A stretch of 64,000 nucleotides of DNA from Lysobacterales bacterium 15-68-25 (GTDB lineage Bacteria; Pseudomonadota; Gammaproteobacteria; Xanthomonadales; Rhodanobacteraceae). Within the stretch, counting starts at the first letter, position 1, and each line of letters opens with the position of its first letter. The stretch is taken from assembly GCA_002279065.1 (NCBI GenBank), contig NCKB01000004.1:186001-250000 (forward strand), read 5' to 3'. A program made the position numbers and the translations under genes. Positions 23,718 through 40,788 of this stretch are shown one piece after another. The notes below the pieces were generated by a model. It worked only from the letters and a program-made list of their open reading frames with translations, did no database searches and was not told where the DNA came from.

Positions 23718-24476
23718 ATGGATACCAGCACCGTTCTCGACCTGAACCAGCTTCGTCGCAGTTGTGCCTCCTGCGCACTGCACGAGCTCTGCCTCCCGGC
23801 AGGCATCGACGGCGAAGACCTCAGGCGACTCGACGACACCATCCGCGACAAGCGCACGCTGGACCGGGGTGAACCGCTGTTCCGCCAGGGCGGCCAGTTC
23901 CATGCGTTGTACGTGGTCCGCTCCGGGTCGCTGCGCACCTTCGTCGAGGACGCCTCCGGTAACGTCCAGGTGCTCGGCTTCCACCTGCCGGGCGAGTTGG
24001 TCGGCGTGGACGCGCTGGCCAACGACCACCATGCCAGCCAGGCCGAGGCGCTGGAACGCTCGAGCATCTGCGAACTGCCCTACGACCGCCTCAACCATCT
24101 GCTGGCCCAGATGCCCTCGCTGCAACGGCAGCTGATGCGCGTGGTCAGCCGCGAGGTGGCCGCCGAGCACCAGCACATGGTGGTGATGGGCCGCCAGCCG
24201 GCTCAGGAACGCATGGCGATCTTCCTGCGCAGCCTGTCCGACCGCTATGCCCGCCTGCACCGCGACGGCGGCACCCTGAATCTGTCCATGTCGCGCTACG
24301 ACATCGCCAGCTACCTCGGCCTGGCAGTGGAGACGGTGAGCCGGCTTTTCACCCGCATGGAGGAGGCCGGCATCCTGGAAGTGAGCCGCAAGTCGGTCAC
24401 CATCCTGCGTTCGGACCTGCTCGAGGAGATGTGCAGCAGCTCGCGCACCAGCAGCAAGAAGGGCGAAGCCCTCTGA
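23718..24476 (+). CDS. fnr: FNR/Anr oxygen-sensing transcription regulator
   Basis: A 252-residue Crp/Fnr-family protein. The N-terminal cysteines follow the FNR pattern CASCALHELC (Cys16, Cys19, Cys25), with a fourth at Cys118, so an oxygen-labile [4Fe-4S] cluster is expected. The cyclic-nucleotide-like beta roll spans about residues 45-150. The C-terminal helix-turn-helix YDIASYLGLAVETVSRLF contains E--SR, the residues that read TTGA half-sites. It should activate anaerobic and microaerobic genes as a dimer. Three FNR-type boxes lie within 18 kb of it (6221, 16653, 24494), one directly downstream. No box is seen upstream of itself, so autoregulation is not evident. Confidence 0.93.
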   Translation: MDTSTVLDLNQLRRSCASCALHELCLPAGIDGEDLRRLDDTIRDKRTLDRGEPLFRQGGQFHALYVVRSGSLRTFVEDASGNVQVLGFHLPGELVGVDALANDHHASQAEALERSSICELPYDRLNHLLAQMPSLQRQLMRVVSREVAAEHQHMVVMGRQPAQERMAIFLRSLSDRYARLHRDGGTLNLSMSRYDIASYLGLAVETVSRLFTRMEEAGILEVSRKSVTILRSDLLEEMCSSSRTSSKKGEAL

Positions 24477-25148: not shown

Positions 25149-25203
25149 GCCCGCACCGTCGCGCCCTCGCGCTGCCGCCCCCGGCAAAGCGCGCGGTGCG
25201 GGC
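25149..25203. repeat. Long-range inverted repeat between convergent genes
   Basis: Perfect 10-bp arms GCCCGCACCG and CGGTGCGGGC separated by 35 bases, with further GC-rich complementarity inside. It lies in the 174-base gap between the GNAT gene and the convergent LOV-GGDEF-EAL gene. There is no T-run, so it may be a factor-dependent or RNA-stabilising hairpin rather than an intrinsic terminator. Nothing else is seen in this gap. Confidence 0.5.
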
Positions 25204-25306
25204 CTGCCGAGCATGCTGTCTGGTCCCGAGGTTCCGACCCGGGTCCTGCCTGCATCCGTTGCCCGATACCCGGCATCGACGGGGCCGGGGATGGACCGCT
25301 ATCGAC

Positions 25307-27769
25307 TCAGGCCTCGTGTGTGGCCGCTGTTCCGGCGGGCTGGCGCCGCAGCCAGTCACTCGCTGCGTCGGCGTGCATCGGACGGCTGATCAGGTAACCC
25401 TGCAGCACGTCGCAGCCCAGGATCTTCAGCAGCCGCGCCTGCTCGACCGTTTCCACGCCCTCGGCGACCACTCCCATCTGCAACTGGTGGCCCACCGCGA
25501 TCACCGTGCGGGTGATCGCGACGCTGTCGTCGTCGTCGGGCAGGTCGCGGACGAAGGACTTGTCGATCTTCAGCCGGTCCACCTTGAACTGCCGCAGATA
25601 GGAAAGGCTCGAGTAGCCGGTGCCGAAATCGTCGAACGCCAGCCGCACTCCCTGCGCCTCGAGCTTCCGGATGGTCTGCAGTGCGCGATCGATGTTCTCC
25701 ATCAGCGACGACTCGGTCACCTCCAGCTCCAGCTGCTCGGGCTTCAGGCCGTGCCGCTGGAGCGTCTCGATGACCATCTCGGCGAAGTTGGGGCGCTGCA
25801 CCTGTTGCGCCGCGACGTTCACGGCCAGAACCAGCCCTTCGCCGATGCCTTCGTCGATCCATTGCCGCAGCTGCATGCAGGCATGCTCGAGCACCCACTG
25901 GCCCAGTTCCGGCATCAACCCCATGCCTTCGGCCACCGGGATGAAGCGGTCGGGCATGACCAGCCCAAGCTCCGGGCTGCGCCAGCGCAGCAGCGCCTCC
26001 ATGCCGAGCAGGCGACCATCCTGTGCGCAGACCTGCGGCTGGTAATCCAGATAGAGCTCGTCGCCCTGCATTGCCGATCGCAGCCGGGCGCCGAGCATGC
26101 GGCGATCCTCGGCCCGCAGCATGTCCTCCTGCGCGTACGCGCAGACCATGTCCCGCCCCAGATGCTTGGCGCGGGTCATCGACGCCTCGGCCCGCAGCAG
26201 CAGCTCGGACAGCTCTTCGACCCGCTCCGGATAACTCGCCACGCCGATGCTCATGGTGACCAGCACCTCGCCGGTGGCGATGGCGATGGGTTGCGCCGCG
26301 TCCTGCCGCAGCGACTCGGCCAGTTCCATCGAATCGCCGAGCGCCAGACCAGGCAGCGCGACCACGAACTCGTCGCCGGTAAACCGTGCCACCCGCCCCA
26401 GGTTGCCCACCCGGGTGCGCATGCGCGCGGCCATTTCCGCGACGATGCGATCGCCGACCTCGTGGCCCATGGCCTCGTTGATGGCATGGAAGCGGTCCAC
26501 GTCGGCATAGACCAGCGTCATCGGCTCACCGGGATGCAGTCGTCCGTGCGCTTCCAGCATCGCCTCGATCACCGGATAGCGCGCCAGCCCAGTCGCCGCG
26601 TCGTGCGTGGCAGCGTAGGCCAGGCGCGCCTCGGTATCGCGCTGCTCGGTGACATCGCTCTGGATGCCGATGTAGTGGGTGACCTCGCCACGGGTATCCC
26701 GCACCGGAGCGATGTAGAGCTGGTTCCAGAACAGCGTGCCGTCCTTGCGGACATTGCGCAGCAGCGTGCTGAATTCCTGGTGGCTGGCCAGCGCCTGGCG
26801 GATGCCGGAGCGCTCGGCCTCGTTGTCCTCGCTGCCGTGGAGGAAGCGGCAATTGCGCCCCAGCACCTCCTGGCCGGCATAGCCGGTCATGCGCTCGAAG
26901 GCCCGGTTGATGAAGATCACCGGCATGTCCGGCAGGCGTGCATCGGCGATCACGACACCGTTGCCGGTGGACTGGATGGCCCGCTCCAGCAGGTGTCGGC
27001 GCGCGTCGGCGTGGACGCGCGCACTGACATCCTGCAGGTGGGCCAGCACGGCCCGGCGGCCACGGTAGTCCATTGCGCGATAGATGCCCTCTACCGGCAA
27101 CGACGAACCATCGCCGCGTCGGTGCTCCCACATCGTCGGCTGGCCGTCGAGCAGTTCGCCCGATGCCAGCATCCGGGCGAAGCGCTCGCGCTCGGCGGGT
27201 GCGAGCAGGGACTCGAAGGCACGCCCCTCGAGCGTTCCGCCGGCGCCGCCGTATTGCCTCTGCGCCGCCGCATTGGCGGCAAGGATGCGCCCCCTGCCCG
27301 GATCGAACAGCGCCAGCGGCACCGGCCCTTCGTCGAACAGCAGGCGGTGGCTGGCCTCGCTCTCGCGCAGGACTTCCACGAAACGGGTGTGGTCGACCGC
27401 GTAGCGGATGCTGCGCGCGAGGCGCTCTGCATCGATCAGGCCCTTGACCAGATAATCGCTGGCCCCCGCCTCCATCGCGGCCACGTCGATCGAGGGATTG
27501 CCGCGACCGGTCAGCACGATGAAGGCTCGTGTGAGCCCCTCGCGGTTGACCGTATCGATCAGGTCCAGGCCGCTGGTGGGTCCGAGCAGGTAGTCGACCA
27601 GATAGACGTCGTGCACGCCCTGTCGCAAGGCCGTCAGGCCCTCTTCCGGGGTGGCGCACCAGTCGAACTGGTATCCGCCCGCGCTGGCATCGCGGAGCAT
27701 GTCGCGGATGAGGATGAAATCGTCCTCGTCGTCATCCACCACCAGCACCCGGAGCGGCGTATGGGTCAT
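25307..27769 (-). CDS. Receiver-PAS-LOV-GGDEF-EAL c-di-GMP signalling protein
   Basis: An 820-residue multidomain protein. A receiver domain (1-130, phosphoacceptor Asp59) is followed by a PAS (about 140-255) and a second PAS of LOV type (about 262-378). The LOV core GRNCRFLHG holds the flavin-adduct Cys307, with KDGTLFWN and YIGIQSDVTE carrying the expected FMN-contacting Asn and Gln. The GGDEF motif is altered to TGDEF (464-468) and has no RxxD site. The EAL domain keeps EALLRW (about 591), DDFGTGYSSL and EGVET, so it is probably an active c-di-GMP phosphodiesterase with a regulatory GGDEF. Its start overlaps the upstream response regulator (ATGA). It would integrate phosphorylation and blue light. 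Confidence 0.9.
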   Translation of the reverse strand: MTHTPLRVLVVDDDEDDFILIRDMLRDASAGGYQFDWCATPEEGLTALRQGVHDVYLVDYLLGPTSGLDLIDTVNREGLTRAFIVLTGRGNPSIDVAAMEAGASDYLVKGLIDAERLARSIRYAVDHTRFVEVLRESEASHRLLFDEGPVPLALFDPGRGRILAANAAAQRQYGGAGGTLEGRAFESLLAPAERERFARMLASGELLDGQPTMWEHRRGDGSSLPVEGIYRAMDYRGRRAVLAHLQDVSARVHADARRHLLERAIQSTGNGVVIADARLPDMPVIFINRAFERMTGYAGQEVLGRNCRFLHGSEDNEAERSGIRQALASHQEFSTLLRNVRKDGTLFWNQLYIAPVRDTRGEVTHYIGIQSDVTEQRDTEARLAYAATHDAATGLARYPVIEAMLEAHGRLHPGEPMTLVYADVDRFHAINEAMGHEVGDRIVAEMAARMRTRVGNLGRVARFTGDEFVVALPGLALGDSMELAESLRQDAAQPIAIATGEVLVTMSIGVASYPERVEELSELLLRAEASMTRAKHLGRDMVCAYAQEDMLRAEDRRMLGARLRSAMQGDELYLDYQPQVCAQDGRLLGMEALLRWRSPELGLVMPDRFIPVAEGMGLMPELGQWVLEHACMQLRQWIDEGIGEGLVLAVNVAAQQVQRPNFAEMVIETLQRHGLKPEQLELEVTESSLMENIDRALQTIRKLEAQGVRLAFDDFGTGYSSLSYLRQFKVDRLKIDKSFVRDLPDDDDSVAITRTVIAVGHQLQMGVVAEGVETVEQARLLKILGCDVLQGYLISRPMHADAASDWLRRQPAGTAATHEA

Positions 27770-28224
27770 GCGTCCTCCCTCCGCGTGCCGGATGGCAGTT
27801 GCACGATGTCCATCCAGTAGCGTTCCAGCGAGCGCAGCACCGTGATCAGCTCTTCGAAGCGGCGGGGCTTGGTGACGTAGGAATTGGCGCCGAGCTGGTA
27901 GCTGAGCCGGATGTCCAGCTCCGCCTTCGACGTGGTCAGGATGATCGCCGGCAGATGACGCAGCCGGTCGCTGTCCCGGATTGCCCGAAGCGCCTCACGC
28001 CCGTCCATCCGCGGCATGTTGAGATCCAGCAGCACCAGATCCGGCAACACCTCATCGGCCGCGAGGTCGCGCTCGGCCAGGCGTGCCATCAGCTCGACGC
28101 CATCGGCGACGAATTCGATCGATACCTCGACACCGCTCTCGGCGAACGCGTCGGACAGCAGCACGCGATCATCCGCATCGTCCTCCGCCACCAGTATCGA
28201 CAACGTTCCCTGCAGCTGCGTCAT
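27766..28224 (-). CDS. Single-domain response regulator, Rcp1-like
   Basis: A 152-residue stand-alone receiver. Acidic pocket EDDADD (about 14-19), phosphoacceptor Asp67 in LVLLDLNMPRMDG, a Thr in LTTSK and the conserved Lys in VTKPRRF are present. It is of the Rcp1 type that partners phytochrome-like kinases, with no output domain. Start at 28224 overlaps the kinase stop (ATGA) and its stop overlaps the next gene (ATGA), so all three proteins are translationally coupled. It probably passes or competes for phosphate from the upstream kinase. Confidence 0.92.
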   Translation of the reverse strand: MTQLQGTLSILVAEDDADDRVLLSDAFAESGVEVSIEFVADGVELMARLAERDLAADEVLPDLVLLDLNMPRMDGREALRAIRDSDRLRHLPAIILTTSKAELDIRLSYQLGANSYVTKPRRFEELITVLRSLERYWMDIVQLPSGTRREDA

Positions 28225-31200
28225 GAACTTGCTCCTGGCATATCCCTGTTCAGCAGTGGCGCGTCCGGCAGATCCGGCACAGGCGGGACCGCACGGGAAG
28301 GCATCACGACGACGAAGCGCGCACCCTGCCCGCTTCTTCCCTCGGCCTGGACCGTCCCGCCGTGGCGCTCCACGATACGCCGGACGATGGCCAGCCCGAT
28401 ACCGGTGCCGGGGTAGACATTGCGCGGATGCAGCCGCTGGAACGGTGCGAAGATGCGCTCCGCGTAGGATGGATCGAACCCGATCCCGTTGTCCTGAACC
28501 GAGATTTCCCAGCGCTCGGTGGTGATACCCGCCTCCCCGAGCGGCCGGGCCGACACCGTGATCCGGCATGGGCGGTCCGGCGCGCGGAATTTCAGCGCGT
28601 TCGCCACCAGATTCTGCAACAACTGGCGCATCTGCGTGGGATCGGCGTCCAGCGTCGGCAACGGCCCCGCCTCGATGTGTGCCCCCGCCTCCTGCACGCG
28701 CGCGACCAGGTCGTCCAGCACCGTCGCCAACTCGCCGGAGAGGTCGACCGGCACCAGCGCCACCGAACGCGTGCCGACGCGGGAGTAGGCCAACAGGTCG
28801 TCGATCAGCGTCTGCATGCGCGACGCCGCATCGCCCATGCGCTGCAGGTAGTCGCAGGACGAATCGTCCAGCTGCCCGGCCAGGCGGGACTGCAGGCGGT
28901 CGGAGAACGCCTGGATCTTGCGCAGCGGCTCCTGCAGGTCATGCGAGGCCACATAGGCAAAATCCTGCAGCTCGCGATTGCGGATGCGGAGGTCCTCCAT
29001 GGCCTTTTCCAGCGCCTTGTCGGCCCGGCGTTTGGCGGTGACGTCACGGGCAACCGCGAAGATCAATCCCTCGGGAGAGCGGCGCGAGGTCCACTCCAGC
29101 CACACGTCGCTGCCATCGGCGCAGCGCAGGCGGTTGACGAAGCCCGACAGCGGCTCGCCACTCTCGTGCTGCCAGGAAGCCGCATCCTCCGTCGCCATGC
29201 GGTCCTGCGGATGCACCAGATCGATCAGCGGCGTCGACAGCAGCGTGGCTTCGTCGTAGCCGAGCAACCGGCAGAATGCCGGATTGACCTGTACGAAGTG
29301 CCCACTGCCGCCGTCGAAGATGCAGAACACCTCCAGCGACAGATCGAAGAATCGCTGGCGGTCGCGCAGCGAGCGGCGCGCCTCCTTGATATCGCCAATG
29401 TCGCGGAACGCCAGCACCGCGCCGGCCAGCCGCCCCTCGATGCGCAGGGGCGTGGCAACGTAGGCGACGTCCAGCGTGCGCGCGTCGCCCAGGGAGAACG
29501 ATGCATCCTCTTCGCTGGCCAGGTCGCGGCCGCCCAGGATCCCATCCAGCGCGGCACGGGCTTCGCTTGGCAGGGCCTCCGGCCGCGGCAATCCATAGGA
29601 CGGCAGGTCCAGCAGGCGGGCCGCCGTACGATTGAGGAAGGTCGGCATGCCGTGGGCGTCCACCGCAAGCAACCCCTCGCCGACGCTCTCGGCCACCGCC
29701 GAGAGCAGCGCCAGCTGGTTTACCGTGGCCTGCTGGGCGCTGCGAAGTTCGCGGTGGTCCTGCAGCACGGCGAACAGGCCATGGGCGCGTTGCTCGACCA
29801 GGATCGGCAGGGTCACCAGATAACCCGGAAATCGCTCCTGGGCTGCATCCTGCACCGCCACCTGCAGGCGCCCTGCCTCGCCGCCCGCGGCGCTGGCGAG
29901 TGCCGCTTCGACGCGGGGACGATCATCCCCGACGAAAAAGCGCGGAAACAGACGTTGCCTGAGTTCGGCCGGCGCCGCGCCAAGCAGGGTCGACGCCGCG
30001 GCATTTGCCTGCGTGATGCGCCCCTCGGCATCCAGCGCGAATACCGCGTCCGGATGGTGATCGAACAGTGAGCGGAAGCGTTGCTCGCTCTCGCTCAGTC
30101 GCCGGAAGGCCTGCTCATGCTCGATCGCGATCGACGCCAGGGCGGCCAGGCCGTCGATGGCGGTCAGCTCCGCCTCGGCGGGCTCCCTGGTCTCGCCGTA
30201 GTACACCGCGAACGTACCCAGCACGCTGCCGTTGCGAGCCACGATCGGCGTCGACCAGCACGCCTGCAGGCCATGCGGCAGCGCGAGCGACGCGTAGTTC
30301 GCCCACAGCGGATCGGTCGCGATGTCGCTTACGACCACCCGCTCGCGGCGCCAGGCAGCCGTGCCGCACGAGCCCGCCTCGGGGCCGATCGAGGCTCCGT
30401 CGATCGCCTTCATGTACTGGCGAGGCAGGTGGGGGGCCGCGCCGTGGCGCAGGCGGCCATCCTCCAGCAGCAGCACCGAACAGAGTGATCCGGCCTGCTG
30501 TGCCTCGTAGGCGCGCACGATGGTGTCGAGCACGTCCGGCAGTGACTGCCCGCTGGCGATCGCGGTCAGGACCCGGCGCTGCGCGGCCTCCAGCTCCTCC
30601 GCCCGATGCAATTCGGTGTGGTCGCGCCCGACCACGTAGATGCACTGCGCGCGCTCGGACCACACGCCCGACCACTGCATGTGCAGCAGACGACCATCAC
30701 GGGTGACGTTGCGATTGCGGAAGTTGGGATTCGGATGCCCGGCCACGATGCCCGCGACGGCCTCGAACGACGCCGCGATGTCGTCCGGATGAATCAGACG
30801 GGCCATCGACTCGCCCTCCAGGCTGTCCACCGGATAGCCCCACAGTCGCTCGGCCGCCGCACTGACCCGCAGCAGCCTTCCTTCTCGGTCCAGGACGATG
30901 ATGACGTCGGGCGCGCTGTCCATCACCAGCTGGGTGGCCTCCAGGGCCTGGGTCAGCGCCTCGCGCGCCGACTCCTGCTCGGTGATGTCCTGCACCGCTC
31001 CGGCCACGATCGGATCGCCGTCCTTCGCCACCAGCTCGGCGAGCGCCCGGATCACCCTCACCTCGCCATCGGGCCGGATGATCCGGTAGCGCCGCTCGAT
31101 ACGCACCTCACCGTGTTCCAGCCGGCGCTGGTCCTCCATCAGGGCATCCCAGTCCTCCGGATGGACCCTCCGACGCAGCGCTTCGAGCCCCTGTTCGCCT

Positions 31201-33677
31201 GGACTTTCCGCGACGCCGAAAATGGCGCATGTCTCCGGCGACCAGTGTAGGTAGCCGCTTCGCAGATACAGCTCCCAGCTGCCCATGAGGCCCAGTTGCA
31301 GGGCGTGGCGCGAGTCGGCATCGCGCTTGAGCAGCTCGCGTTCACGGTGCTTGCGCTCGGAGATGTCGTGCATGTACACGGTCAGGCCGCGGGCGTGGGG
31401 ATAGGCTCGCATCTCGTACCAGCGGCCACCGGCCTCGTTCGAGGCTTCCAGCGTGACCGGCCGGTTGCCCTGCATCGCATCCAGCCACCTGCGATGCATG
31501 GAACCGCCCGGGCCGGCGTCGTCGAGCAGGCCGCCCAGCACGGCCCAGCACGAAACGTCCTGCAACGACGGGGCATCGGCCTGGAGCATGCGTGCCGCTT
31601 GCGGGTTGACGTAGGTGAAGCGCCAGGACGGATCGACCATGAAGACGCCGTCGCTGATGCTCTCGAGTACGGCGATCATGTCCTTTTCGGCGTCCATCAG
31701 GGCAGCCTGCATCGCCTCGCGCGCGTGCACCTGGTCCCGCAGCTCGCTGCCTGCCTGCTCGGCGAGCCTGGCGCGCTCGCGCGCCAATGCGGAAAGACGC
31801 ATCGCCGCCGTCAATAACCCAGCCAGCGCAAATCCGAGCAGCAGGATCAATTGCGCCGATCGTTGCCCGGTATCTCCGGAGGACGGGCCGAAGGTCAGTT
31901 GCCACTGACGGCCGTAGATCGGCAACACCTTCGATGCCTGGCCCGGGTCCTGCGGACGCAGCCTGCCGCGCGCATAGATGATCTCACCGTCTTGGCGAAC
32001 CAGCAGGTTGTCCACGCCCTCCTGCGATGCCAGCAATGCCGGAAACAGTCGATCGAACACCAGCACACCGATCACGTAACCACCGCGCCCCGCCTTGGCC
32101 GGCACCGGCGCGACGATCAACTCGCCAGGCTGGCCCAGCAGCAGCGGCATGGGCGCGCTCAGGCGGACACCGCCGCTCGCGTCCACTGCATCGAACACGG
32201 CGCGGCGTACAGGAATGTCGTCCAGCCGCGTCCCCGGGGCCACGCCGGTGGAAGGATGCGCCGCCACCAGGCGAAGCACCCGGTCGCTGTCGGCAAATGC
32301 CACCGCCCGCAAACCCGGAAGATCGGCAAGGAGCCCCTCTGCATCCAGCCCGAACAGTCGTTCGCGGGCCTGGCCGTCGACCAGGACCATGCGCCGCGCC
32401 AGCCGCTCGATCGCGCCGGCCTGGCCGTCCATGCCCGATCGCAGCAGCGTGGCCACACTCCTCTGGCGGTTGTGCATCAACGCCGATTCGAGCGAGGCCT
32501 GCCGGTGCTCCAGCGCCCCCCAAAGCAGCACCGAGAACATCACCACCACGAGCCCCATCGCGGCCGGAATCAGCAACGTGCGATGTCCGCGCTCCCACGG
32601 CGAGCGTGGACCCGCCCCGCTGAGCGCGAGGCCCAGGATGGACAGACCGAGCGGTCCAAGCATCGAGACGGGGCGTGCCGAGGCCGGAAGCAGCCCGGGC
32701 GCCAGCCAGAGCCCGCTGGCCGTGAGCAGACCGAGGATCGCCACCAGCACCCCGGTCGACCAGACCGCCATCCACAGCCCCGGCTTGCGATCGGCCAGAG
32801 CACCACAGATCACCGCCACGGCCACCGCCAGCAAACCCCAGGCGCACAGATGGGTCGGGACCCATCCCGGTCCCGGCCAGGAACGGAGGGACGGGCCGAC
32901 CGCCGGCAACGAGACGATCACGGCCACAATCAGCAACGGCGAGGTCAGCGCACCAAGGAGCATCGCCACACGCCGGAACCCGACCATCAGCAACAGCACC
33001 CCCGCGGCGAGCAGCAGCAGGGCCAGCGCGGTACCCGTCGCCATCCCCGACACCATGTCCGGTGAAGCCGCGGAGACCGCCACGTCCAGCCGGCCGGCCA
33101 GCCCCACCCAGCCGGCCGCCATCGCCGCCGCGCAGGCACTCGACGGCCACTGCCGAACGGAGCTCACGTGCAGCGATGCCACCACTGCGCCAGCCAGCGC
33201 TAGCGCCAGCGCTGCAATCGGCCCGTGACCGACCATCGGATCGGCTGCGGTCGACAGCGTGGACACGAGCGTCCGGAGGGCCCAGACGGGCACCGTCAGG
33301 GCCAACCCCAGCGCGAAGACGGGCCAGGGCGTGGGGCGCCAACGCGTGGATCGCCCGCGGAAAGTGGACCCGGGAAGAAGAACGGCAATCGCAAGAAGAT
33401 TCGGAAAACCCGGGCCGGACCAGCCCAGCCGCAGCCAGGCGGTGAACAACACGCCCAGCGCGGCAAGCGCGATGGTGATGGCTGCCGTTCCCCGCCCGCT
33501 GGCGGAGCACCAGGCTGCCGCGGTGACCAGGAGCAACGCCAGTCCGGGTAGCCAGCCGAAGGGAACCGCCAACGAGGCTGGAAGCGACAGTGCCGCGACC
33601 AGCACGAACGCCGCCAGGTAGCCGGGCGCTATCCTGGCGAGAGCGACCGCATTGGCTCCAGCCCCTTCGCGCGCCAT
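28221..33677 (-). CDS. Very large multi-PAS/GAF hybrid-sensor histidine kinase
   Basis: An 1818-residue inner-membrane kinase. About ten hydrophobic helices (residues 15-390) are followed by a periplasmic CHASE-like domain (about 395-600), another helix (about 608-628), three PAS/PAC units (about 665-1025), a GAF (about 1040-1190), three more PAS units (about 1195-1550), a HisKA domain (DFAYVASHDLQEPLRKI, His about 1579) and an HATPase with N box LVANALKF and G boxes DNGIGF and GTGIGLAIV. The ASHDLQEPL context is that of phytochrome-family kinases, but the GAF lacks an obvious bilin Cys context. ATG 33677 is preferred over a TTG four codons upstream. First gene of the operon. Ligand unknown. 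Confidence 0.9.
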   Translation of the reverse strand: MAREGAGANAVALARIAPGYLAAFVLVAALSLPASLAVPFGWLPGLALLLVTAAAWCSASGRGTAAITIALAALGVLFTAWLRLGWSGPGFPNLLAIAVLLPGSTFRGRSTRWRPTPWPVFALGLALTVPVWALRTLVSTLSTAADPMVGHGPIAALALALAGAVVASLHVSSVRQWPSSACAAAMAAGWVGLAGRLDVAVSAASPDMVSGMATGTALALLLLAAGVLLLMVGFRRVAMLLGALTSPLLIVAVIVSLPAVGPSLRSWPGPGWVPTHLCAWGLLAVAVAVICGALADRKPGLWMAVWSTGVLVAILGLLTASGLWLAPGLLPASARPVSMLGPLGLSILGLALSGAGPRSPWERGHRTLLIPAAMGLVVVMFSVLLWGALEHRQASLESALMHNRQRSVATLLRSGMDGQAGAIERLARRMVLVDGQARERLFGLDAEGLLADLPGLRAVAFADSDRVLRLVAAHPSTGVAPGTRLDDIPVRRAVFDAVDASGGVRLSAPMPLLLGQPGELIVAPVPAKAGRGGYVIGVLVFDRLFPALLASQEGVDNLLVRQDGEIIYARGRLRPQDPGQASKVLPIYGRQWQLTFGPSSGDTGQRSAQLILLLGFALAGLLTAAMRLSALARERARLAEQAGSELRDQVHAREAMQAALMDAEKDMIAVLESISDGVFMVDPSWRFTYVNPQAARMLQADAPSLQDVSCWAVLGGLLDDAGPGGSMHRRWLDAMQGNRPVTLEASNEAGGRWYEMRAYPHARGLTVYMHDISERKHRERELLKRDADSRHALQLGLMGSWELYLRSGYLHWSPETCAIFGVAESPGEQGLEALRRRVHPEDWDALMEDQRRLEHGEVRIERRYRIIRPDGEVRVIRALAELVAKDGDPIVAGAVQDITEQESAREALTQALEATQLVMDSAPDVIIVLDREGRLLRVSAAAERLWGYPVDSLEGESMARLIHPDDIAASFEAVAGIVAGHPNPNFRNRNVTRDGRLLHMQWSGVWSERAQCIYVVGRDHTELHRAEELEAAQRRVLTAIASGQSLPDVLDTIVRAYEAQQAGSLCSVLLLEDGRLRHGAAPHLPRQYMKAIDGASIGPEAGSCGTAAWRRERVVVSDIATDPLWANYASLALPHGLQACWSTPIVARNGSVLGTFAVYYGETREPAEAELTAIDGLAALASIAIEHEQAFRRLSESEQRFRSLFDHHPDAVFALDAEGRITQANAAASTLLGAAPAELRQRLFPRFFVGDDRPRVEAALASAAGGEAGRLQVAVQDAAQERFPGYLVTLPILVEQRAHGLFAVLQDHRELRSAQQATVNQLALLSAVAESVGEGLLAVDAHGMPTFLNRTAARLLDLPSYGLPRPEALPSEARAALDGILGGRDLASEEDASFSLGDARTLDVAYVATPLRIEGRLAGAVLAFRDIGDIKEARRSLRDRQRFFDLSLEVFCIFDGGSGHFVQVNPAFCRLLGYDEATLLSTPLIDLVHPQDRMATEDAASWQHESGEPLSGFVNRLRCADGSDVWLEWTSRRSPEGLIFAVARDVTAKRRADKALEKAMEDLRIRNRELQDFAYVASHDLQEPLRKIQAFSDRLQSRLAGQLDDSSCDYLQRMGDAASRMQTLIDDLLAYSRVGTRSVALVPVDLSGELATVLDDLVARVQEAGAHIEAGPLPTLDADPTQMRQLLQNLVANALKFRAPDRPCRITVSARPLGEAGITTERWEISVQDNGIGFDPSYAERIFAPFQRLHPRNVYPGTGIGLAIVRRIVERHGGTVQAEGRSGQGARFVVVMPSRAVPPVPDLPDAPLLNRDMPGASS

Positions 33678-33779
33678 GGTCCCCCCCAAGGGCCAACGCA
33701 GGTCGTCGTCACGACTGCGTCGCTACAGATAGCACGGGTCCGCGACAGGCTGCCAGTAGGAACATTTCCCGACACGCAC

Positions 33780-34259
33780 CTACCAGCAGGTCGCGGGATC
33801 GGTCGCCCCGCGGGTGCCCGTCTGGTCGATCGAGAGGGTGCCGCATTGGGTGTCGGCCACCTGCCCATTCTGCGGTTGCGCCTGGATCGTGAACGAGGTC
33901 GCCGCCGAAGCCGGCACGTACTTGTAGCTGTCGCCGGTCTGCGAAGCAGACGCGCAATCCAGCATCGCCGGGTTCGCCGTGATCGGGTTCGCCGTGCCGG
34001 AGGCCGGATCCTTGTCGTAGCGAAGGTAGGTCGTGTAGTAACGCTCCATGTAGTTGGCGTACTCCGACAGGCAGGCCTCGGCGGCCACCCGGTGCGACCT
34101 GATGACATGCTTGCGGTACGCCGGCCAGGCGATGGCGGCGAGGATCGCAATGATCGCGACGACGATCATCAGCTCGATCAACGAGAAACCGCCAGTGGAT
34201 CGGCGATGCTCTTTCCAGACTAAATCCGCCGCAACAGCACTGCCAGAGCTCTGTTTCAT
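33780..34259 (-). CDS. pilE: Type IV pilus minor pilin PilE
   Basis: A 159-residue type IV prepilin. The prepilin peptidase site is G-FSLIELMIVVAIIAIL, with an unusually long 24-residue leader. The ATG is supported by AAGGATC just upstream, which overlaps the pilY1 stop. A C-terminal Cys pair (about residues 138 and 158) can form the D-region disulfide. It is expected in the initiating minor-pilin complex with FimT, PilV, PilW, PilX and PilY1. Last gene of the pilus operon. After it lie 102 bases before the kinase gene, with no clear terminator. Confidence 0.9.
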   Translation of the reverse strand: MKQSSGSAVAADLVWKEHRRSTGGFSLIELMIVVAIIAILAAIAWPAYRKHVIRSHRVAAEACLSEYANYMERYYTTYLRYDKDPASGTANPITANPAMLDCASASQTGDSYKYVPASAATSFTIQAQPQNGQVADTQCGTLSIDQTGTRGATDPATCW

Positions 34260-34267
34260 GGTGATCC

Positions 34268-37200
34268 TTACTGGTTGATCAGTTCACGCCAAGAGACACG
34301 CTTGAAACTATTGCCCGATCCGGACGTGTTGATCCAACTGTTACTGCCGTTGTCGAAACTGACCAGCATCGTCCCGCCAACGAAGATGGGATTGTTCGGC
34401 AGCGAAGTGAATCCGACACCCGCAGCCGGCGTACCGCCGACATTGTCGGAAGCGTTGATCTGACCATCCCCGTTGGTGTCGAAGAACGTCGATGACGGAT
34501 TGGTGCCAGTGAACGGATCAATCGCCATGATCCAGCCTCGACCAGACGGATTACACGGATCGACAGCCTCGGGGATACGTGTCGTACCAAGCAAGAGGCT
34601 GCCCTGGAACTGGTTGGGCGTAACCATGCGCTCGCCCTGCTGCACCTGAGCGTTACTGGTGCCGGTTGGAGAAAGCAAGTCGATATACCAGCCAGACTTG
34701 CCAGCAAGGGAGTTCGCACCGCTCAACGTGCTGACTGTCCGCGCCCCGAGGCTGCTTCCTGAGGCGGATGTCTCGGACGTGATGCTGCGCTGGGCAAGCG
34801 AAGAGCGTGTCTTCGTCGAGTCCACGGCCGGATTGGTGGTGCCACTCGACTCCACGATCAGGCCGTACCAGCTCTGCGTGCTGGTGTTGGAAAGATCGGA
34901 AGCGGTGAGGTATTTGCCGGTACCAAAGAACACCCAGAGATTCCCGCTCGTAGGGTCCTTGCCGAGCAGCATGCCCGCAGTGATGGGCTGCGGGTTGCTG
35001 CTCGCGTCCGTGGCGGTGTACATCAGCGTGGTGCCAGCGGAACTCGGTGTCGTGTAGGTCCCGTCGTTCAGCGTAAAGCGCCAGACATGGCCGTCCAAGT
35101 CGCCAGCGTATGCCTCCGTGCTCACATTGTTGCCGGCGGTGCCGATCCAGACAGCCGGCGCGGCGAGCCCCGTGGCGTCGGACGTCGAATAGACGCTTAG
35201 CGTGCCATTCTGGATATTGAACTGAAGCAGCGCCGCCTGCCCTGCTGCACTGTTGTACCCATTGCCAATGAGGACCGACCAGCTACCGTCAGCGGTTTGT
35301 GCCACGACCGGCTTTCCGGTCATCTGTCCGATGTAGTTGCTGTTGCTCAGACCGTCCGACGCCGAGCGCTCCCAAAGCAGCGTGATGTTCGACGGGTCGG
35401 TGATATCAAGCGCATAAATCGCCTTGGCGGTGCCTTTGCCCGTGGTTCCGACCAGAACGGTATGCCAGTTGCCGGAGTAATAAGCATCAGCGACAGTCAA
35501 CTCACCGTCATTGAAATACTGATGTGCCACGTCCGCGCCGTAATCCGGACTGGCCAAGTTGGACAACCCAGCCGTGATCACCGCTCCCGGCAAGTACGCA
35601 TAAGCCTCCGCACCTGTGCTGGCATTGAACCCGTGAAGCATACCGTCATTGGCCGCGACATAGATCATGCCGGTGCGGCTGGTGTTGTTGCTCGCATACG
35701 TGGAAAAGGAACTCGACCCCGTGAAGGTCGATGTATAGAACTGGTTGGGATCCGGGGCCCCCACATACACCGGCTGCGAATCGACGATATCGCCCAGCGG
35801 CGTGTCACGATTGCGATAACTTCCGCCATTGGCCTGGGAGTTCGAGGCATCGCCACGCAGATAATTGATCATATTGGCCTGCGCGGTGGCCCCCGCACCC
35901 AACGCGTTCAACTGGGCAGCAGACAAGGCCGGCAACGTCCCGCTGTTCACCTTGAACGCAAGATAGGTGCCCGCTCCCGGGTTATAGGTATAGATGTTGC
36001 GGCTGGCTGCGGCCGGCAACGTGGATACCGCCGTCCAGTTCGGCGTGGTGGAAATGGCGCCAGTGGTCGAGTTGATCGAGAAGGCCTTGAGATCGCCCTT
36101 CCATTTGGCGGTGTAGTAATTCGCCTGATAGGCCATGGTCCCCGACTGCAACTGGGTCGAGTTCGCCGCGAGACTTGCGCCGGTACCCACTCGCTCGGCT
36201 GCACGCTTGAGCGCGTCCTTCAGGCCACTGGAGAACGCCTCCGGGCTGGTCGCGGAATAGAACCCGCCATGGCCGTTCACGGCTGCATGTGCCAGGTCGG
36301 CAATGTTGTAGATGCTGTCTGCGGAAGGTTGCGGCCAGCTGAAATTCTTGATGGCGGTACCACCGTTGGCCCAAGCGAAAATCTGGTCGATTGTGGTGCC
36401 TGACGGGTTGATACCAGTCGGCGTGAATCCCAATCCCAGGGTGAAGGTCGTCATGTGCTGCCAGAAGGCTGGATCCTCCGTACTGGTCGGCACCTCGTTG
36501 CTGGTGCTCGGGCGCAGGTCGCTCTCCCAGTACTTCATTGCAACGTCGGCAAGGGTATTGCTGTAGGAATCGGAATACGGGGCCGCCGCGGTGTAGGTGT
36601 AACTCTGGCTGTTGGGCCCCGTCACCTTCGTTCCGTTGGTGCCATCTGCATTGCCCGGCCCGCCGCTGAGCGACCCGTTCCAGAAGCCGTCCGTAGTGAG
36701 GATGGTGTACGCCTGTCGGCAAGCCAACTCGCTGGTGTCCATCGGGTTCGGGTCGCTGGACATGGTCGACCAGGGCTGCGAGGAGCCGTAGTACTGGCCC
36801 ACAGCATCCAAGGAACTGCGCAGCGGGGTGCTGTTGTTGGCATATATGTTTGCCACCCAGTTCCAGAAGTAGGCCTTCTGGGTGCCGGACGAGCCGTCGC
36901 CAAACGGCGCAACCTGGGCAATGTACTTGCCGTTGTAGCTGGACGTGTAGTTCCCGGTGGCGCGAACGCCAGTGGCATTGTTGTTGTTGATCGAGCCGAA
37001 GCCAACCCGGAACGAAGGACTAATCCCGACGAACGAATTCATCAGGCCGGTCTTCGCCATCAGGATGCGCGTATGGTAGTAAGAGAACCAGTTGGCGACA
37101 TTCTGCTGACTCGCAGCACTGTCGTCGCACACCGCCTGTTGAGCGGAAGTCAGCACCGAGCAGTCCCCGGTCGCTCCAATGTAGTGCTGCGTGTAGGGAC

Positions 37201-37900
37201 CGCCAGGAACACCGGTCGTATAGGTGAAGAAATACTTGTAGTTGGTTTGGGTGCTCTGGCATACGTTTCCGGAAACGAGGGTGTCACCGGAATTGCACAT
37301 GTAAGTGGGTGCGTAGTAGCTGTAGGTCCAGCCATACTTTCTTGACCAAGTCGCGTGCTGGCACTGCCCACTGTAGGTGCCGCTAGTAACGAGCGTGTCG
37401 CCAGAATTGCATCCAAGCGTCGCGTTGTAGGTGGTGGTGGCCTGGTAGGAAAGCCGCGTGTAGTAATTGAAATTTCCGCTATACCGGGTCACGTCTGTGG
37501 CCGTGGTGTCGGTAAATCCATCCGCATACGCATTGGTCAATCCGGGCGAATTGGGATACGACGTGCCATCGGCGTGCGGGGGCGGCGTGTAGGTGACACT
37601 CGGGTTGTAATAAATCTGATTTACCAGGTGATTCCGGACGCCGTCCGCGCTGGTGTCGGACAGATAGCCCCAATCGGGCATGAAGTCCCACGCCATCGAA
37701 CCCGAATCGTCGAGCATCAGGACAATGTTCGGCGGCAGCGAAGCCTGCACGATCAGGGGCGCCGTGTCGATCGTCACCGTCGTGGCGGCGGCGTTGCTCG
37801 GCGCACAGAGCATGCCTATGCCGCAGACAGCTAGGCTTGTATACAGCAATCTGCCGAGGAACCCGTATACCTTGCTGCACAGACGTGAAGTGATATTCAT
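34268..37900 (-). CDS. pilY1: Type IV pilus tip adhesin / biogenesis factor PilY1
   Basis: A 1210-residue secreted protein with a signal peptide (about residues 1-38). A von Willebrand A-like N-terminal domain carries the MIDAS motif DDSGSM (about 64-69), and the C-terminal half is a PilY1 beta-propeller. An EF-hand-like loop DTNGDGQINASD begins at residue 1141, matching the calcium-binding loop of PilY1 that controls pilus retraction. An RGD triplet occurs in NYLRGDASN. PilY1 caps the pilus, mediating adhesion and surface sensing. The gene is noticeably richer in A/T and in Ser, Thr, Asn and Tyr codons than its neighbours, typical of a fast-evolving surface protein. Confidence 0.92.
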   Translation of the reverse strand: MNITSRLCSKVYGFLGRLLYTSLAVCGIGMLCAPSNAAATTVTIDTAPLIVQASLPPNIVLMLDDSGSMAWDFMPDWGYLSDTSADGVRNHLVNQIYYNPSVTYTPPPHADGTSYPNSPGLTNAYADGFTDTTATDVTRYSGNFNYYTRLSYQATTTYNATLGCNSGDTLVTSGTYSGQCQHATWSRKYGWTYSYYAPTYMCNSGDTLVSGNVCQSTQTNYKYFFTYTTGVPGGPYTQHYIGATGDCSVLTSAQQAVCDDSAASQQNVANWFSYYHTRILMAKTGLMNSFVGISPSFRVGFGSINNNNATGVRATGNYTSSYNGKYIAQVAPFGDGSSGTQKAYFWNWVANIYANNSTPLRSSLDAVGQYYGSSQPWSTMSSDPNPMDTSELACRQAYTILTTDGFWNGSLSGGPGNADGTNGTKVTGPNSQSYTYTAAAPYSDSYSNTLADVAMKYWESDLRPSTSNEVPTSTEDPAFWQHMTTFTLGLGFTPTGINPSGTTIDQIFAWANGGTAIKNFSWPQPSADSIYNIADLAHAAVNGHGGFYSATSPEAFSSGLKDALKRAAERVGTGASLAANSTQLQSGTMAYQANYYTAKWKGDLKAFSINSTTGAISTTPNWTAVSTLPAAASRNIYTYNPGAGTYLAFKVNSGTLPALSAAQLNALGAGATAQANMINYLRGDASNSQANGGSYRNRDTPLGDIVDSQPVYVGAPDPNQFYTSTFTGSSSFSTYASNNTSRTGMIYVAANDGMLHGFNASTGAEAYAYLPGAVITAGLSNLASPDYGADVAHQYFNDGELTVADAYYSGNWHTVLVGTTGKGTAKAIYALDITDPSNITLLWERSASDGLSNSNYIGQMTGKPVVAQTADGSWSVLIGNGYNSAAGQAALLQFNIQNGTLSVYSTSDATGLAAPAVWIGTAGNNVSTEAYAGDLDGHVWRFTLNDGTYTTPSSAGTTLMYTATDASSNPQPITAGMLLGKDPTSGNLWVFFGTGKYLTASDLSNTSTQSWYGLIVESSGTTNPAVDSTKTRSSLAQRSITSETSASGSSLGARTVSTLSGANSLAGKSGWYIDLLSPTGTSNAQVQQGERMVTPNQFQGSLLLGTTRIPEAVDPCNPSGRGWIMAIDPFTGTNPSSTFFDTNGDGQINASDNVGGTPAAGVGFTSLPNNPIFVGGTMLVSFDNGSNSWINTSGSGNSFKRVSWRELINQ

Positions 37901-37971
37901 GGCGGTTATGCCTTTTCTTTACGGCACGGATTGGGGAGCGTAGCCGAGCTCTGCGGCATCGATGGCAACCA

Positions 37972-38586
37972 CTACTGTTGTTTAACCATCCCTTGAAGCG
38001 TCACCACCGCGCGAGTGCCGACCGCCGAGGGATCCGCACTTCGCGCGGTAATTCGGTAGTAGATCGCAGTGGTAGATGCACCTTGGGCGCCGTAGTTGTG
38101 TGCGTTTGCACTCTGGTTGTACCCCGTGTTCGAGGACGGATCGACCCAGTTGCCCATGTTTTCCACGACGAACTGCGGGGCACTGCCATTGACACTCAGA
38201 CTCGAAGTGATGAACTGGCCAGACCCGGTTCCGCTGACCACCGTCTGATAGGCGCTCGGTGGGACATTCGGATCGGTGAAGGGATTGGCAAGACACACCA
38301 CGCCGCCCGCCGCGCAGTTGCGCGCGATGACTCCGGGATTGTTCGGGATCAGATCCGCCGCCGCGCGCATCGCTGCCTCCGCAGCCTGGAACTGCAGGGA
38401 GCGGTCGTACATGTTCGATGCCATCTTCTGCTGCATGATCGTGCCGCGCACGGCGGCCAGCCCGACCAGCGAGATGATCACCAGCAGAAGCAACGCCACT
38501 ACCAGCGCGATGCCGGACTGCCGGTGAACGCCCTTCCCTCGCTGGCGGGTAAACGTGACGTAAGACATCGAGCCGTGCCTGTTCAT
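37972..38586 (-). CDS. pilX: Minor pilin assembly protein PilX
   Basis: A 204-residue pilin-like protein. The N-terminus RQSGIALVVALLLLVIISLVGLAAV has a prepilin cleavage Gly but no Glu at position 5 of the mature protein, as is usual for PilX/GspK-type tip components. QFQAAEAAMRAA after the helix is typical of PilX. Start at 38586 lies one base after the pilW stop. Between it and pilY1 are 71 bases without a recognisable gene. Confidence 0.9.
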   Translation of the reverse strand: MNRHGSMSYVTFTRQRGKGVHRQSGIALVVALLLLVIISLVGLAAVRGTIMQQKMASNMYDRSLQFQAAEAAMRAAADLIPNNPGVIARNCAAGGVVCLANPFTDPNVPPSAYQTVVSGTGSGQFITSSLSVNGSAPQFVVENMGNWVDPSSNTGYNQSANAHNYGAQGASTTAIYYRITARSADPSAVGTRAVVTLQGMVKQQ

Positions 38587-38587
38587 G

Positions 38588-39616
38588 TCATTGCACCCGG
38601 TTGCGGATGGTGGTGGTCGCCGTGAACGACCTCGCAATCGCTTTGGCATTGGTGCCGGCGCGCTTGTCGGTGCTCTCCATCTTCAACGTCACGCGTACCG
38701 CGTCCACCGCGCTCCAGTCGGTGACGCCGGTCGCCGGCACGAAGTTCGTACCGTTCTTCATGTGGTACTGAATCGTCATCGAGGTGACGTCACGGACCAT
38801 TTCCTGCCTGGGCGTCGTGATGGTGGTGCCGTCGTTGCTGATCGACACCAGGTAGAGCGAGGTGCCACCCAGTGGATTGACGCCGATGTACCAGTCTTTC
38901 GCCGTAAGCAGCGCGATCTGCGAATTGGGACCGTATTCGTAAGCATTGCCGTTGGTGGTGCAGACGGTGGGGTAACCAAGGCCCTTGGAGCAATTGCCGA
39001 TCGACCCGGAGCCGGCGCCCGAGTTGTGCACCACGGTCTTGTTGGTGCTCTGGTAATTAGTGACCTGCAGGATTGCCGAGTGGTCCGGGTCGCACACCAC
39101 GATGATGTCGTTGTCGTGCAGGTCGGTGGTCGTCTCGTTGATCTTGAAGTTGGCGGCGTTGATGCGCTGGTTGACCGTGAGACCGAGGTCGCCGGCACCG
39201 ATCAGCTGCAGCGAGTCGGAGTTGGCGGCGCTCGACCGATCGCCGGGAGACGTGCCGAACGCGACTGCCGGGTCGACCTGCGACGGCCCGTAGCCGTGCA
39301 CGGCGTTGTTCCAGTCGGTGTACCACTGGGCCGTGGGGTTGGTTAGGACGTTGGCCACGCGGCCATTGTTGTTGCACCCGGTCAGACCGGCGTCACGGAT
39401 GTCTCTTGCCATCAGCTCGAACGCGATGCGCGCACCGTCCTGGACATCCGCGATCGCCTTGTTGGTCGCGTAGGAGCGCTGGCCGGCGATGAACACGCTG
39501 ACCACGCCACCGATCACCACCAGGCCGAGCAGCATCGCGATCATCAGCTCCACCAAGGTAAAGCCCCCCGCCCGCCGCATGGCGCGTCGACTCGAATGCT
39601 TCGGCTGGAGATTCAC
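38588..39616 (-). CDS. pilW: Minor pilin PilW
   Basis: A 342-residue prepilin-like protein. A 17-18 residue basic leader precedes G-FTLVELMIAMLLGLVVIGGV, with Glu5 present. It is long for a pilin, as PilW is, with the conserved DVQDGARIAFELMARDIRDAGLTGC segment. It is a component of the tip complex that primes pilus assembly. It overlaps pilV by four bases. Confidence 0.92.
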   Translation of the reverse strand: MNLQPKHSSRRAMRRAGGFTLVELMIAMLLGLVVIGGVVSVFIAGQRSYATNKAIADVQDGARIAFELMARDIRDAGLTGCNNNGRVANVLTNPTAQWYTDWNNAVHGYGPSQVDPAVAFGTSPGDRSSAANSDSLQLIGAGDLGLTVNQRINAANFKINETTTDLHDNDIIVVCDPDHSAILQVTNYQSTNKTVVHNSGAGSGSIGNCSKGLGYPTVCTTNGNAYEYGPNSQIALLTAKDWYIGVNPLGGTSLYLVSISNDGTTITTPRQEMVRDVTSMTIQYHMKNGTNFVPATGVTDWSAVDAVRVTLKMESTDKRAGTNAKAIARSFTATTTIRNRVQ

Positions 39617-40086
39617 AGGATCGCCCTCGTCATTACCTGCTGCTTGTCGCTGCCGCCGGCACCGGCGCGGCTATCGTCGAACTGGATCGTCACGGTGCAG
39701 TCGGTGCCGGTGCACTCCACCTTGCCGATGGTGTTTGACGAGGCGCCAAGGGGCGCGAGCTGGGTGCTGCACCACTCGTAGAGCTGCTGCTGCGCCAGGG
39801 TCACACCGGTGCCCGTGGGCGCGGTGCACGAACTGGCCGTCACGGTGCCGTTGTAGGCGCCGGCGTTGGCGGCACCGATATCGGCGCGCATCGCATCGAG
39901 GATGGAATAGCTGGCGATGGTCGCCATGCTCCGGGTCATCGCACTGTTGTTGGTGGACAGCGAGTTGGCCAGCAGCGCGGCGATGCCCAGGAAGGCGATC
40001 GACACGACCAACAGGGCGACCAGCACCTCGATCAGGCCAACGCCGCGCTGGCTGGATTGCTTCGCGTAACCGGAACGACGACTCAT
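39613..40086 (-). CDS. pilV: Minor pilin PilV
   Basis: A 157-residue prepilin-like protein with leader MSRRSGYAKQSSQRG and helix VGLIEVLVALLVVSIAFLGIAAL (Glu5 present). Four cysteines in the globular domain probably form disulfides. Start at 40086 overlaps the fimT stop (ATGA) and its stop overlaps pilW. It belongs to the minor-pilin priming complex. Confidence 0.9.
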   Translation of the reverse strand: MSRRSGYAKQSSQRGVGLIEVLVALLVVSIAFLGIAALLANSLSTNNSAMTRSMATIASYSILDAMRADIGAANAGAYNGTVTASSCTAPTGTGVTLAQQQLYEWCSTQLAPLGASSNTIGKVECTGTDCTVTIQFDDSRAGAGGSDKQQVMTRAIL

Positions 40087-40688
40087 GGGCAGGCCCTCGT
40101 ATCCTTGCCGACGGCGACGACCGATCCACCGGTGATCGAGATCACCCGGTGGTTGTCGGTGGTCAGCGCGCTGGTGCAGATGTCGGCGAGGACGTTGATG
40201 TTTGCGGGTGCGGAGGACCCGGGCACCCGCCCCAGTCCGTCGCCACCGTAGCGGATGGCCTGCACGTCGCCGTCCAGCTGGATACCGCCGGTGATCGAGG
40301 TGATGCCGGAGCGCACCTTGGTGGCAGTCGTGCCGGACCCGGTAGCCGTGGTCAACATGACCGCACCCACTTCGGTCCCGCATGCGCCGCCGAGCGTGCT
40401 GTTCGTGTTCACCGTGGCGGAATTGCTGCAGAACTGCGCGCTCGCGTTGGCCTTGATGGCCTCCATGCGTGCCGTGTTCAGCGAGGCGATGAGGTCATTG
40501 GCCGTGGTGTCCAGCCGGCTCGACAGCATGATGGAGCGGAAGCTGGGCACGGCGATCACCAGCAGGACCGCGGCCACGGCCAGCGTGATCATCAGCTCCA
40601 CGAGGGTGAAGCCGCGGGCGAACGACGCCCCGCGACCACGCACATCGAACCTGGCCGACTGGGTCGGCCGGAACCGGAAGACTCGCAT
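40083..40688 (-). CDS. fimT: Minor pilin FimT/GspH family
   Basis: A 201-residue prepilin-like protein with an N-terminal leader of about 26 basic residues, then G-FTLVELMITLAVAAVLLVIAVPSF and a GspH-like globular domain. FimT homologues in Xanthomonadales have been linked to DNA binding during natural uptake; no DNA-binding residues can be confirmed here. AGGGGG lies before ATG 40688. First gene of the fimT-pilVWX-pilY1-pilE operon. Two tandem AlgR-like sites lie upstream. Confidence 0.9.
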   Translation of the reverse strand: MRVFRFRPTQSARFDVRGRGASFARGFTLVELMITLAVAAVLLVIAVPSFRSIMLSSRLDTTANDLIASLNTARMEAIKANASAQFCSNSATVNTNSTLGGACGTEVGAVMLTTATGSGTTATKVRSGITSITGGIQLDGDVQAIRYGGDGLGRVPGSSAPANINVLADICTSALTTDNHRVISITGGSVVAVGKDTRACP

Positions 40689-40748: not shown

Positions 40749-40788
40749 CGGCCGACGAGCGGTGTCAAACGGCCGACGAGCGGCATCA
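40749..40788 (-). promoter_or_regulatory. Tandem 19-bp direct repeats with AlgR-like cores upstream of fimT
   Basis: Two copies of CGGCCGACGAGCGG followed by TGTCA or CATCA, with period 21 bp (40749-40767 and 40770-40788). On the fimT strand each contains CCGCTCGTC (40762-40754 and 40783-40775), one mismatch from the AlgR site CCGTTCGTC. They lie 66-95 bases before the fimT start. The second copy runs into the stop codon of the neighbouring GGDEF gene. A small hairpin CGGACG-TTAC-CGTCCG (40713-40728) lies between them and fimT. Confidence 0.55.

Follow-up and report, generated by a model that had tools for sequence, protein, structure and literature searches.

A gene on the minus strand of the window (the whole stretch of 64,000 nucleotides analysed here) encodes a protein of 820 amino acids which, judging from its sequence, is probably a response regulator whose output is c-di-GMP phosphodiesterase activity and which receives at least two inputs: a kinase, acting through D59, and blue light, acting through C307. 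We give this reading a probability of about 0.6. The window is assigned to Dyella, a genus of soil bacterium, and the corresponding locus of D. lutea is 91% identical. The order receiver (REC)-PAS-LOV-GGDEF-EAL had been proposed in an earlier examination of the letters alone (the sequence-only reading) and is confirmed here by the open frame, the Pfam domains and the matches to solved LOV proteins. That reading identified the domains correctly but missed the overlapping kinase and receiver genes, the NCRFLH variant of the LOV motif and the repeated losses at the LOV site in Rhodanobacter. The features discussed below are:

25307-27769, minus strand: REC-PAS-LOV-GGDEF-EAL protein, 820 aa (open ATG frame; Pfam; homologs in Dyella, Rhodanobacter and a third genus)
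27410-27748, minus strand: REC, residues 8-120, with D12-D14, phosphoacceptor D59, T87 and K109 (Pfam Response_reg)
27020-27343, minus strand: first PAS, residues about 143-250 (second stretch of Pfam PAS_9/PAS_4; flanking helices in the model)
26624-26998, minus strand: LOV, residues 258-382, with adduct Cys C307, H311, N339, N349 and Q370 (solved LOV homologs; residue table)
26150-26611, minus strand: GGDEF, residues 387-540, with T464GDEF (Pfam GGDEF)
25379-26086, minus strand: EAL phosphodiesterase domain, residues 562-797 (Pfam EAL, E=7.7e-76)
27766-28224, minus strand: single-domain receiver of the Rcp1/RcpA (phytochrome response regulator) class (sequence; PDB matches)
28221-33677, minus strand: membrane-spanning histidine kinase with several PAS and GAF domains, about 1818 aa when counted from the ATG at 33677 (Pfam)

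The LOV phosphodiesterase gene is the last of a three-gene module, preceded by the multi-PAS/GAF histidine kinase gene and then by that of the Rcp1-class receiver. Successive genes overlap by 4 bases (ATGA), once between the kinase stop and the receiver start and again between the receiver stop and the start of the LOV protein. The kinase core is nearest to PDB entry 8f71, followed by bacteriophytochromes, and the closest solved relatives of the small receiver include the phytochrome partner regulators RphyB, RcpA and Rcp1. Besides its membrane region, the sensor part of the kinase consists only of PAS and GAF domains. About twelve hydrophobic segments are found at its N-terminus (residues 1-390 of the frame at 28221-33689). 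In two sister Dyella species (L041 and L147) homology to the kinase begins only at residue 370, so these two seem to have lost the membrane part; the frame of the third sister is similarly short.

Among 234 genomes of the taxonomic family, 13 contain a match to the LOV protein (E<=1e-140) and REC is kept in 12 of them. The C-terminus of the kinase (E<=1e-80) is present in exactly these 12 REC-bearing genomes (4 Dyella, 7 Rhodanobacter and a single genome from a third genus), and the order kinase, receiver, LOV protein is conserved. The three components have therefore been inherited together. In a class sample outside the family, none of the matches listed reached into the receiver domain. The thirteenth genome (G225) carries instead a long fusion in which GAF and PAS domains precede a Cys-less LOV domain, GGDEF, EAL and a C-terminal receiver. 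This protein (L144:4361-10423) has 2020 aa, reads NVRFLQ in LOV and AGDEF in GGDEF, and its GAF and PAS domains resemble the sensors of the kinase; the kinase/phosphodiesterase pair may here be united in a single polypeptide.

Since the gene ends a tightly overlapping module that includes a histidine kinase, its REC domain has a likely phosphodonor. The N-terminal receiver with Asp59 announced by the sequence-only reading is indeed present and displays the full set of a two-component response regulator: the acidic pair D12-D14, the phosphoacceptor, T87 and K109. The last three residues (D59, T87 and K109) are invariant in all REC-bearing homologs. However, RavR is a warning for a kinase input through D59, because its receiver serves as a phosphate sink rather than setting EAL activity (PMC6707612).

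Residues 255-385 match a solved LOV protein with E=3.6e-36 (other solved LOV proteins score more weakly), a similarity far beyond chance and accompanied by a PAS_9 assignment. The positions corresponding to the photochemical site read N306-C307-R308-F309-L310-H311, R324, N339, N349 and Q370. They include the adduct-forming Cys, as first noticed from the letters alone, both predicted flavin Asn and the active-site Gln. The sole departure in the LOV core is at the end of the motif, which is GRNCRFLH where GXNCRFLQ is usual. This substitution speaks against dual control, since the residue usual at position 311 is a Gln in contact with the flavin side chain. Its counterpart in YtvA, Q66, is among the residues coordinating the ribityl chain and phosphate (PMC3836802), which places the change away from where the adduct forms. 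In a class-wide sample of exact GRNCRFL[QH] sites, His occurs at 3 of 15, the window being one of the three. NCRFLH is thus uncommon but turns up repeatedly in nature at the predicted flavin-chain contact. Three LOV-GGDEF proteins from another genus of the same taxonomic family (L136, L137 and L138) combine NCRFLH with an intact GGDEF.

The protein is well preserved in the three sister Dyella species (91-92% identity), where the REC, LOV and EAL signatures are all kept. Within Dyella, dN/dS estimated by a simple counting method on four close species is 0.045 for REC, 0.059 for EAL, 0.065 for LOV and 0.128 for GGDEF; by this measure LOV is under strong purifying selection. Among the Rhodanobacter proteins, several of which come from metagenome bins, identity falls from 81% (REC) and 79% (EAL) to 71% (GGDEF) and 66% (LOV). 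The LOV domain is therefore firmly kept in Dyella and more loosely in Rhodanobacter. The least conserved domain is the first PAS, with 17% invariant columns. One metagenome bin, REEB105, exhibits a frameshift within the LOV domain (L048:10941-11080), which may be a genuine lesion or an artefact of assembly.

Drift at the LOV site affects several positions. Q370 is retained in 6 sequences (4 Dyella and 2 Rhodanobacter) and replaced by L, I, M or S in 7, a distribution that requires about four changes on the tree if Gln is ancestral, and otherwise about three regains; some support values of this tree are below 95. At least three or four lineages of the gene family have thus undergone a change at this Gln. 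T12-5 is one of the Rhodanobacter sequences with Gln, FW106 has M, and R. fulvus has L together with the motif SCRQLG. Position 311 is H, D, N or G among the homologs. N306S and N339D are found in R. fulvus and Root480; G229 has N349H and G225 has C307V, the adduct Cys being retained in 12 of the 13 homologs. This drift suggests that light sensing is not essential in Rhodanobacter. Most of its orthologs may nevertheless remain photoreceptors, since the active-site Gln is generally dispensable for LOV signalling: most replacements in the engineered YF1, leucine included, leave signalling largely intact, natural receptors devoid of this Gln mostly carry L or I (S and others also occur) and a natural Met-containing LOV-GGDEF protein still responds to light (PMC9098866). 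It is conceivable, although we hold this only tentatively, that LOV sensing is being dismantled stepwise in this family against an unchanging phosphorelay and EAL output, the losses touching the flavin-chain contact, the Gln, the Asn and, in the distant homolog, the Cys.

The best surviving alternative to dual control is that LOV binds flavin but plays chiefly a redox or structural role, phosphorylation by the kinase being the working input and light having little physiological effect. The recurrent change of Gln370, the drift of the NCRFLQ and flavin-Asn positions up to the loss of the Cys in G225, and the lower identity of LOV than of REC and EAL in Rhodanobacter all fit such a role. Two published proteins point the same way. 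RprR, the one published protein found with GRNCRFLH, shows almost no transcriptional effect of blue light (PMC12802281), and PASd of RmcA, a LOV-like PAS domain lacking the Cys, responds to phenazines as well as to light (PMC8846402). However, the Cys persists in nearly all homologs, the substitutes for Gln include residues (L, I and S) found in natural receptors, and Dyella retains every photochemical residue under a constraint close to that on EAL. We consider this alternative unlikely.

The EAL domain was correctly described as intact. The metal and catalytic set of an EAL phosphodiesterase is complete (E591 of the E591-A-L motif, N651, E683, D713, D714, K734, E770, E773 and Q790) and invariant in 13/13 homologs. 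The GGDEF domain, by contrast with an active diguanylate cyclase, departs from the GG(D/E)EF signature at its first residue (T464GDEF). This Gly is replaced by T, V, S or A in every one of the 13 homologs, which makes the protein most likely a net phosphodiesterase, and the cyclase activity of the domain is likely lost. Such a loss falls short of proof, since enzymes with AGDEF (VCA0965) and SGDEF (ECA3270) are active diguanylate cyclases (PMC3974145). The light- and phosphorylation-tuned phosphodiesterase deduced earlier from TGDEF and an intact EAL is thus retained as the best reading, without TGDEF by itself demonstrating that the cyclase is dead.

The same enzymes lend some plausibility to a bifunctional protein, in which GGDEF would still make c-di-GMP. 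D423, N431, D440, D466 and E467 are all present, and no RxxD inhibitory site was found in the GGDEF domain. However, activity of VCA0965 is reported only with Ala, Gly, Met or His as the first residue, and not with Thr (PMC3974145). Moreover, this position drifts between T, V, S and A, two homologs read TGNEF and have also lost the Asp of the metal position, and GGDEF has the highest dN/dS of the domains compared within Dyella. Bifunctionality is accordingly judged improbable.

The window also contains a type IV minor-pilin operon (33783-40688, minus strand) directly upstream of the kinase gene and on the same strand. It encodes GspH/FimT-like, short N-methyl, PilW, PilX and PilY1 proteins and a pilin that matches the ComP family (DNA-uptake receptor, PF16732). 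A TPR-GGDEF protein is encoded just upstream of the operon (40786-42816, minus strand), so that the pilus genes lie between a likely cyclase and a likely phosphodiesterase. A non-catalytic c-di-GMP receptor controlling these pili, like FimX, which shares the order receiver, PAS, GGDEF and EAL, is nevertheless very improbable and was rejected, because FimX is a degenerate receptor whereas the Dyella protein has an intact EAL; the LOV domain is a further difference. The specific link with type IV pili is itself weakened, as only in Dyella were pilin genes found beside the module, and not at the Rhodanobacter loci.

Under the preferred reading, a phosphodiesterase with kinase and light inputs, the co-encoded histidine kinase would autophosphorylate and hand its phosphate to D59 of REC. 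It would probably also phosphorylate the separate Rcp1-like receiver, which may be a competing acceptor or an adaptor. In the LOV domain, Q370 would pass the light-induced change to the beta-sheet and from there, via helix 374-388, to the GGDEF-EAL dimer. GGDEF itself, presumably no longer producing c-di-GMP, may bind GTP and keep the EAL dimer in register. A precedent is CC3396, whose degenerate GGDEF activates EAL once it binds GTP (PMC7288161), and the closest GGDEF-EAL structure in the PDB by sequence, PA0575 (5m3c), has GTP bound. The output would be an altered local c-di-GMP level. As to the sign of the light effect, activation of EAL is a first guess by analogy with SL2, a LOV-GGDEF-EAL protein whose phosphodiesterase is activated by blue light (PMC8846402).

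The AlphaFold model is compatible with transmission along helices, those at 114-147, 249-266, 374-388 and 547-568 linking all domains. Its confidence is moderate overall (mean pLDDT 81, pTM 0.41) and low at residues 311-313, and for these reasons the geometry of the flavin pocket was not read from it. The best fold matches are DosP (PAS-PAS-GGDEF-EAL), PA0861 and PA0575. A hydropathy scan found no transmembrane segment in the 820-aa protein.

LOV domains combined with GGDEF or with both GGDEF and EAL account for about 18% of bacterial LOV proteins (PMC4844311). Natural Gln-less LOV-GGDEF-EAL proteins are already published (PMC9098866), and so is LOV-controlled phosphodiesterase activity. SL2 from Synechococcus elongatus likewise has LOV ahead of GGDEF-EAL (PMC8846402). 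However, it is described with these three domains only, whereas the Dyella protein adds REC, a second PAS and H311, and has a kinase and a receiver as partners. RprR from Ralstonia pseudosolanacearum (Cache-HAMP-PAS-LOV with GGDEF and EAL) shares the GRNCRFLH motif and the GGDEF/EAL outputs, but is membrane-spanning and plant-responsive, with a periplasmic Cache domain and no reported receiver (PMC12802281). The Gln-deficient LOV-GGDEF-EAL receptors of Mesorhizobium loti have the same outputs and, like them, several Rhodanobacter orthologs lack the Gln (PMC9098866). The Dyella protein keeps it, so that loss and retention occur inside one orthologous family. The RavS-RavR pair of Xanthomonas campestris also associates a histidine kinase with an EAL response regulator containing a degenerate GGDEF; RavR differs in having no reported LOV and in its N-terminal GGDEF and EAL (PMC6707612). 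RmcA (PA0575) is the closest GGDEF-EAL protein by sequence and DosP the closest whole architecture by fold, although DosP senses oxygen through haem.

Two features are specific here: receiver and LOV inputs are joined in a protein whose kinase and Rcp1-like receiver are inherited along with it, and the LOV site decays by degrees among members of one family. This REC-LOV-GGDEF-EAL family was not found in the open-access literature searched, where the papers obtained for LOV in Dyella or Rhodanobacter look unrelated from title and abstract and two others mention receiver, LOV, GGDEF and EAL. If light and phosphorylation both act, it would offer a simple case of a single c-di-GMP phosphodiesterase combining two unrelated inputs, with the kinase encoded in the same cluster. 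If the stepwise dismantling of LOV is real, it would be a natural experiment in the conversion of a photoreceptor into a light-blind or redox-sensing allosteric module. The orthologs form a useful natural series in which parts of the light sensor have been lost to different degrees. Since their substitutions at the Gln and in the flavin pocket occur in an otherwise alignable protein, they would allow a direct test of which LOV residues a full-length natural receptor requires in order to signal.

Two other reading frames near the module deserve mention. An open frame of 874 aa (25196-27820, plus strand) lies antisense to the entire LOV gene; it was not taken as a gene and is most likely an antisense by-product of high GC content. 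A regulator of the Crp/FNR family is encoded at 23718-24476 (plus strand) and carries an N-terminal Cys cluster, CASCALHELC, a feature resembling that of FNR/Anr.
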